From a virus: 42,800 bases of DNA. Location of the stretch: IMG/VR virus record IMGVR_UViG_3300046791_000254, positions 1-42,800 of that record, one strand, 5' to 3'. Each line of letters begins with the position of its first letter. Position 1 is the first letter of the stretch. The notes beneath the pieces are model-generated. The model was not told the origin of the DNA. It did no database searches and saw only the letters and a list, made by a program, of their open reading frames with translations. The position numbers were made by a program, and so were the translations under genes. This document shows positions 39,100 through 40,192 of the stretch, in pieces.

Positions 39100-39166
39100 A
39101 GAACCATGCAGACTTAGCTTCTCCCAAGGCCTTACAGTCAACTGGATCTCTGCGGTTATATTTCAT
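39086..39166 (-). CDS. Candidate 26-aa peptide
   Basis: ATG 39166 overlaps the stop of the 341-codon frame at 39163 (ATGA), and the frame ends at TGA 39086, within the next gene's start region. MKYNRRDPVDCKALGEAKSA, ending WFYVNG. It may act only as a coupler. Confidence 0.3.
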   Translation of the reverse strand: MKYNRRDPVDCKALGEAKSAWFYVNG

Positions 39167-40188
39167 GGATGCTCCGCTATCGCACTAACATCGTTTAATT
39201 CGTCGCTGCAATAGCTGCCATGCTGTTGCTGCCACTCGCGGAACCTGTCCATTGCCAAGGGCTGTAATGCGGTCCACCCGAGCGGCCACCCCATCAGCCA
39301 CTCGACCCACGTCGGGTTCAGAACGCCACCACCACCTCCCTCCGGAGATACTTGGGTATTCAAGCGAACTTGAAGACCTTTGGCTTTCCTCTCCGCTAAC
39401 CACTTCCTCCCATCCGAAGCATTCGGAGTCGCCCATTTCACCTTCGCTCCCAGCCCTGGCGACTTCCTCATCAGTTCCGAAGGATAATTGCCGTCCTTCC
39501 AATCCCTTGCTGTCGGCGTGGGCCATTTCAGGACCGCCGTCGCGAGTCCATCCCCACTCTTGCTGCTCAGGCCCTTGCGGTTGTAATTGCCCTTTACGGT
39601 TGGGATTGGCCATAGATCAAACCTCGCCATGGCGCCGAGAGTCGGCCGAGTGTCCGCTCCCTCGCAGCGGTTGAAGCGGCTGCCGGTATCGATCGCCACG
39701 GGAGTGGGCAAGTATCCAGATCCGCTTTCGGATGTGAGGAGCTCCAACGTCGGACGCTCCCAGCACTCCCCATTCCGCATCGAACCGCTGTTCGGCCAGG
39801 TCTCCGAGAACTCGTCCCAACCCCCGAGAAGTGAGCATTGGGCTGTTCTCCACATAGACGTATCGCGGTCCCACCTCGCGAACGATGCGGGCCATCTCTC
39901 GCCACAATCCTGAGCGCTCCCCGTCAAGTCCGTCTCCTGAGCCGGCGACCGAGATGTCCTGGCAAGGAAACCCTCCCGAAACCACGTCAACAAGCCCTCT
40001 CCATGGCAGCCCTTCAAAAGTAGTAACTTCAGACCAAATCGGGAAAAGCGGGAGGCATCCATCGGTTTGCCGTTGCGCCAGAACGGCTGCGCAGTAGGCA
40101 TCACGCTCAACTGCGCACACGGTTCGCCACCCGAGGAGGTGACCCGACAGTATTCCGCCACCAGAGCCTGCGAAAAGAGCCAGCTCAC
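39163..40188 (-). CDS. Long overlapping frame (341 codons) across the cytosine methyltransferase
   Basis: This frame is open throughout, offset from the methyltransferase frame. Its contents are not random: WRTAQCSLLGGWDEFSETWP, MRNGECWERPTLELLTSESG, WPIPTVKGNYNRKGLSSKSG, KWPTPTARDWKDGN and LNPTWVEWLMGWPLGWTALQ match, from memory, a conserved protein type found beside or annotated as phage DNA methyltransferases. Its stop overlaps the next ATG (ATGA). It begins with GTG 40188, or possibly GTG/ATG further in. Either it is a genuine overprinted gene or its conservation is an echo of the methyltransferase frame. Confidence 0.5.
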   Translation of the reverse strand: MSWLFSQALVAEYCRVTSSGGEPCAQLSVMPTAQPFWRNGKPMDASRFSRFGLKLLLLKGCHGEGLLTWFREGFLARTSRSPAQETDLTGSAQDCGERWPASFARWDRDTSMWRTAQCSLLGGWDEFSETWPNSGSMRNGECWERPTLELLTSESGSGYLPTPVAIDTGSRFNRCEGADTRPTLGAMARFDLWPIPTVKGNYNRKGLSSKSGDGLATAVLKWPTPTARDWKDGNYPSELMRKSPGLGAKVKWATPNASDGRKWLAERKAKGLQVRLNTQVSPEGGGGGVLNPTWVEWLMGWPLGWTALQPLAMDRFREWQQQHGSYCSDELNDVSAIAEHP

Positions 40189-40192
40189 GCAT
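39185..40192 (-). pseudogene. dcm: C5 cytosine DNA methyltransferase interrupted by an in-frame TGA
   Basis: From ATG 40192 the first 191 residues hold motif I (LFAGSGGGIL, residues 6-15), motif IV SGGFPCQDIS with catalytic Cys77, motif VI YVYVENSPML and motif VIII GAPHIRKRIWIL. TGA at 39619-39617 stops the frame. Two codons on, ATG 39613 reopens the same frame for 142 residues containing EPDVGRVADGVAARVDR and motif X-like ALGNGQVPRVAATAW. The two halves together equal a normal phage enzyme (about 335 aa). It may be a broken gene, a TGA readthrough, a sequencing error, or a two-subunit enzyme reinitiating at 39613. Confidence 0.8.

Follow-up and report, generated by a model that had tools for sequence, protein, structure and literature searches.

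Two nested reading frames of a phage locus as the likely subunits of one C5 DNA methyltransferase

On the minus strand of the window (by which we mean the whole 42,800-nucleotide stretch of IMG/VR virus record IMGVR_UViG_3300046791_000254 that was analysed), a single stretch of about 1 kb holds the code for two distinct proteins, one in each of two frames. Frame 1, which we call alpha, starts with an ATG at 40192, and its first part (39617..40192, minus strand; 191 aa) amounts to the N-terminal two thirds of a C5 cytosine methyltransferase and carries motifs I-VIII, including the segments GFPCQDIS, ENSP, and HIRKRIWI (which contains RKRIWI). Motifs I, IV (PCQ), VI (ENV/ENS), and VIII occur in order, satisfying the criterion we applied for a C5 enzyme. 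Frame 1 matches PF00145 over 40192..39620 (E=2.1e-26) and alpha part 1 matches phrog_363 (E=1e-51), while the frame-1 model of an intact relative, L002, matches M.HhaI and M.HaeIII. An in-frame TGA (39614..39616, minus strand), which reads TGG in L002, the closest relative, interrupts the frame, and behind it lies alpha part 2 (39185..39613, minus strand; 142 aa; phrog_32758, E=6.5e-15), consisting of a variable linker and then motif X (RVDRITALGNGQVP). This motif X (ALGNGQVP) is in the same frame as motifs I-VIII, and an initial idea that frames 1 and 2 are joined by a frameshift or indel was dropped when it was found there. Motif IX and a folded recognition domain are absent from frame 1, which does not, then, meet the criterion for a single-chain C5 enzyme.

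Frame 2, in the +1 register and here called beta, is an overprinted ORF (39163..40188, minus strand; 341 aa) that begins with GTG and is open throughout, its start lying downstream of that of alpha and separated from it by 4 nt (ATGCGTGAG). It matches phrog_1008 (E=2.4e-31), as do all 77 of the 77 aligned family members, and Pfam and NCBIfam scans of frame 2 matched no family. A WPTP-type repeat region (YLPTP, LWPIPTVKGNYNRKG, KWPTPTARDWK, and KWATPNASD; approximately 39350..39720, minus strand) is proposed to be the target-recognition region, and a putative motif IX (LNPTWVEWLMGWPLGWT; approximately 39260..39330, minus strand) occupies the same DNA as the frame-1 approach to motif X. The original prediction, made without database searches, described two long overlapping frames, one with C5 motifs and the other open for 341 codons, and this description held: the segments it quoted are found in the frame-2 translation, and frame 2 stays open where frame 1 has its TGA (39616-39614). 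It also pointed to an ATGA overlap with a next start; the letters exist (39166-39163), but the ORF begun there is only 26 codons long, and the ATGA therefore gives no evidence of a next gene. That the two frames look like subunits of one enzyme was beyond what could be seen at that stage. At the contig end (42468-42768), about 50 copies of the 6-bp tandem repeat CGTACC, with 90% matches, may be either an assembly end effect or a real repeat.

We compared the locus with more than 200 relatives overall. Querying IMG/VR with frame 2 returned 80 loci. Frame 1 alone, in an independent search, returned 80 as well, 79 of which were new locus records; some contigs were common to both searches, and removal of identical cores left 137 distinct loci, including the window. 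Frame 2 is open along its length in these relatives, whether they were chosen by frame 2 or by frame 1 alone, and identity to them is about 60-80% for frame 1 over motifs I-VIII and about 30-65% for frame 2. The same +1 overlap is present in all 80 loci fetched from bacterial genomes and prophages, which come chiefly from Proteobacteria and also from Verrucomicrobia, Planctomycetes, and Spirochaetia bins. Beta extends over the full length of the alpha gene, with a median length of 298 aa, and none of the 91 loci examined has a beta that stands clear of an overlapping methyltransferase.

The case that frame 2 encodes a protein rests on these relatives and not on the window alone, where shuffling of frame 1 up to the TGA predicts only about 1.3 frame-2 stops (P(0)=0.2). 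Across the 137 distinct loci, synonymous shuffles of frame-1 codons predict 591 stops in frame 2 and only 4 are observed, one in each of four loci and near the end wherever positions were listed, whereas the third frame in the same test has 2,153 stops against 1,736 expected. Frequent stops in homologues, which the original prediction had named as grounds for refutation, are thus not seen: there are no internal stops and only a few near the end. Eight plasmid C5 methyltransferases that lack a nested partner served as controls. Their +1 stop counts mostly lie close to those expected (21 for 19.5 expected in one and 2 for 2.6 in another, for instance); six of the eight are unremarkable, and two are modestly lower, at P=0.02-0.05.

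The start codon of frame 2 is also conserved, an ATG or GTG being found at offset +4 in 132 of 137 loci. It is kept fixed because frame 1 uses AAT, synonymous with AAC, for Asn2: the codon there is AAT in 122 cases and AAC in none, whereas elsewhere in frame 1 AAT occurs 136 times and AAC 304 times (binomial p=6e-63, a value that ignores the relatedness of the loci). We take this conserved start as indirect support for translation of frame 2, for which we have neither ribosome profiling nor proteomics.

Frame-specific selection, the check that the original prediction had called for, was measured by classing substitutions according to their effect in both frames, in 16 independent close pairs of 85-98.5% identity. 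With frame 1 controlled, frame-2 dN/dS is 0.37 [0.26-0.50] and 0.22 [0.11-0.40] by two estimators, for which simulations with selection on frame 1 only give respective means of 0.64-1.03 and 1.05-1.18, together with about 75 new frame-2 stops in the 16 pairs. Transition bias affects the first estimator but neither the second nor the stop count. Purifying selection beyond the effect of frame 1, our criterion for an overprinted gene, is therefore present, and it extends to the first ~165 frame-2 codons (region N), which are open and selected (dN/dS 0.45 and 0.15). Furthermore, four loci (L098, L121, L022, and L157) encode the frame-2 N-terminus further upstream than usual, opposite a non-conserved frame-1 extension, and conserve it as M[STA]W[LMI][FI]SxA, and in two others (L201 and L222) frame 2 is open and conserved where frame 1 has decayed. 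These comparative data show, at the level of sequence, that frame 2 is a real protein-coding gene lying over the methyltransferase gene, and they support the overprinted-gene candidate of the original prediction; its translation is only inferred.

Motif X stands in an uninterrupted frame 1 in 128 of the 137 loci, and a motif-IX pattern is found in frame 2 in 121 of them. Over motifs I-VIII, frame 1 is tightly held (dN/dS 0.12) and frame 2 is constrained too. Between motifs VIII and X the burden shifts, with frame 1 near neutral (dN/dS 0.83 [0.64-1.03]) and frame 2 constrained (0.32 [0.18-0.50]); in the consensus of this interval frame 1 is unconserved, and frame 2 carries the WPTP repeats and the segment LNPxWVEWLMGWPxGWT. 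We consider this segment probably to be motif IX, because its equivalent precedes motif X within one chain elsewhere, namely in WillSterrel, Raleigh, CheeseTouch, Camperdownii, L201, and L222. Profile support is weak: a profile built on the IX-X segment picks up plant DRM2 methyltransferases, with the hits falling on motifs IX and X, but the best PDB E-value is only 0.019.

The partition of motifs between the two frames is itself variable. In loci of the window type, alpha has I-VIII and X and beta has the WPTP repeats and IX, whereas in L201, L222, and phage Camperdownii alpha has I-VIII and beta the WPTP repeats, IX, and X, frame 1 of L201 and L222 ending after motif VIII with many stops beyond. 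CheeseTouch and Raleigh have IX and X in alpha with WPTP repeats in +1, and WillSterrel has motifs I-VIII, LPTP repeats, IX, and X all in one chain. The frame-1 motif X of the window and the frame-2 motif X of L201 are identical at 15 of 34 positions. Since the motifs change frame while the full set is kept, the two products are best explained as parts of one enzyme. Two other loci, L123 and L053, may mark additional stages in this exchange: beyond motif VIII, frame 1 decays in L123 and changes frame in L053, while frame 2 stays open in both.

Structure prediction informs only one of the two proteins. The AF2 model of the intact alpha of L002 has an M.HhaI-like catalytic core, with residues 190-266 below pLDDT 50 and no recognition domain. 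For beta, the AF2 model is poor (pLDDT 57.5, pTM 0.33), Foldseek gave no fold match to it, and a sequence search against the PDB returned nothing significant; a recognition role for beta consequently rests on position and selection, and not on fold.

We propose that the locus encodes a two-subunit C5 DNA methyltransferase from two nested genes on the same strand, a reading we regard as likely (probability roughly 0.84), in which the subunit functions are inferred without expression, peptide, or activity data. The break in alpha in the window and the failure to find a stand-alone beta in the 91 loci also weigh against it. In this proposal alpha would be the catalytic and AdoMet-binding part, with motifs I-VIII and X, and beta would supply motif IX and a target-recognition region, a role assigned to its WPTP repeats by inference from their position and selection. 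Both would be made from one mRNA, on which ribosomes may start at either of two neighbouring start codons; the paired starts would give a near-fixed subunit ratio, and the subunits would come together as a single orphan phage methyltransferase. In the stretch from motif VIII to motif X the sequence of alpha would be close to free, with beta bearing the constraint, and alpha would have to stay open there because motif X must be reached.

The closest known parallel is M.EcoHK31I, a heterodimeric C5 methyltransferase of YGGCCR specificity. Its large subunit has motifs I-VIII and X and its small subunit motif IX (PMC3404938), and the gene for the small subunit is reported to lie within that for the large one, in a different frame (Lee et al. 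1995). Loci of the phage family likewise encode two predicted polypeptides, with I-VIII and X in one and IX in the other, and have a second gene overlapping in another frame, +1 in all fetched loci. They differ in that the phage beta covers the whole alpha gene, starts 4 nt behind it, and bears WPTP repeats, and in that the window locus is phage-borne, has no restriction enzyme seen adjoining it, and has a broken alpha. A further difference counts against our proposal: we place the recognition region in beta, whereas the predicted recognition domain of M.EcoHK31I is in the large subunit (PMC3404938). We describe the window locus as organised like the M.EcoHK31I type by analogy only, claiming neither membership nor homology, and the need for both chains is inferred. 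M.AquI, a natural split C5 methyltransferase with I-VIII in alpha and IX-X in beta (PMC3404938), divides its motifs as L201, L222, and Camperdownii do; unlike it, the phage loci have a long overlap in different frames, and X is mostly kept in alpha. In PHROGs, the frame-2 proteins all hit phrog_1008 (77/77) and the frame-1 proteins all hit phrog_363 (75/75). These are separate families that share the label "DNA methyltransferase," with nothing in the entry stating that they are two frames of one DNA.

Among alternatives to the two-subunit reading, a programmed frameshift after motif VIII would yield one chain with I-VIII, WPTP repeats, and IX and leave upstream frame 2 untranslated. In its favor, a single-chain in-frame version exists (WillSterrel), and frame 1 ends just after VIII in some actinophages and in L201 and L222; against it, the open and selected first ~165 codons of frame 2 and the conserved +4 start codon would both be unnecessary for frameshifting. 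We consider it very unlikely, with slippery sites having remained outside the analysis. We also think it very unlikely that frame 2 encodes a genuine phage protein with an unrelated function, such as anti-restriction or regulation; the lack of a Pfam or NCBIfam match and the uninformative AF2 model would allow it, but motifs IX and X change frame from relative to relative with no loss from the complete set, and this speaks for one shared enzyme.

Shadow conservation, in which frame 2 is untranslated and conserved only since frame 1 fixes two of three codon positions, was raised as the alternative in the original prediction and is all but excluded. Frame 2 does always overlie a methyltransferase frame, and frame-1 codons partly dictate N-terminal segments such as ETWPxxG. 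However, codon shuffles and simulations that implement precisely this model yield stops by the hundred and a frame-2 dN/dS near 1, it does not account for the choice of AAT over AAC at the frame-2 start, and frame 2 is conserved where frame 1 is absent, decayed, or non-conserved; we reject it on these grounds and on the controls. A hidden homing endonuclease in another frame can be dismissed with similar confidence: the ShiLan insertion in an actinophage methylase gene offers the same general setting, an out-of-frame ORF within a phage methylase gene (PMC11855218), but that ORF is a mobile insertion with an HNH nuclease, whereas Pfam profile scans of 77 frame-2 members found no HNH or other nuclease match, the overlap covers the whole gene in all relatives, unlike a sporadic insertion, and no empty-site relative without frame 2 was seen.

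The window itself is an atypical member: the EcoHK31I-like division of motifs holds for the family but only imperfectly here. Of the other loci, only L046, L062, and L157 have a stop between motifs VIII and X, and frame 2 is intact in all four. Recoding of TGA was considered and rejected, as TGA terminates 21 of the 29 long ORFs of the window, and the frame-1 TGA is therefore a stop and not a sense codon. With alpha cut in its linker, the two-subunit enzyme would be either dead or in three parts (I-VIII, a piece with X made by restart, and beta). An ATG follows within at most two codons of the TGA and has a GAGG 8 nt in front of it, and restart at this ATG could conceivably yield a separate 142-aa motif-X piece, an inference made from the sequence alone. 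Artificial fragments of C5 methyltransferases split between motif VIII and the recognition domain complement well (PMC3404938), which makes a divided alpha plausible. It also remains possible that the TGA is a sequencing error, which cannot be excluded.

A second, distant methyltransferase family shows similar nesting. Besides an intact relative of the window locus (L165:6001-6738), E. coli PT62 prophage sequence holds a second C5 methyltransferase (L165:3043-4029, WP_230069161) in which an unannotated +1 ORF is nested. This ORF has WPTP repeats and the segment LNPAHSRWLMGLP, and its end resembles motif IX. In this family (L165:3043-4029 and L262-L341), the nested ORF is sharply bounded within about 10-90% of the gene. 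Among 75 distinct viral loci the nested region (15 of 20 bins along the gene, 15-90%) has 2 stops against 307 expected, and the two outermost tenths of the gene have at least as many stops as expected; the whole-gene count (207 vs. 494) is unimpressive until binned. Because these loci were chosen by their +1 frame, the count favors openness. With this reservation for the second, two distant families already show nesting.

Long same-strand overlaps with selection on both frames have rarely been established in bacteria or phages, and annotation pipelines discard one of two overlapping frames. Only the frame-1 product is annotated in the E. coli, Salmonella phage, and Acinetobacter phage records that we inspected, and many phage methyltransferases could therefore test inactive, or be misassigned, when studied from the annotated gene. 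A keyword search of the literature found no paper describing these phage genes as nested, which is weak evidence of absence. The nested form is most likely a much more widespread, largely unannotated version of a design known from only one or two enzymes of bacteria. A bolder reading, towards which, taken as a whole, we lean only slightly, is that two-frame nesting is standard in large groups of phage C5 enzymes, that the recognition region, IX, and X have been repeatedly traded, and that the second subunit has been overlooked or mislabelled. The movement of motifs between frames makes it a testable question how a single-chain enzyme turns into two nested genes, or the reverse.

Two side observations concern other loci. 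Plasmid C5 methyltransferases of Alteromonas and Vibrio that have no nested partner (L254, L255, and L258) end in a motif-IX-like segment, LNPVFAERMLGYPENHT, with no X after it. In E. coli PCP07014, a methyltransferase gene that RefSeq classes as a pseudogene with an internal stop (L166:4001-4762) still has a +1 frame that matches the beta profile lengthwise, in pieces.
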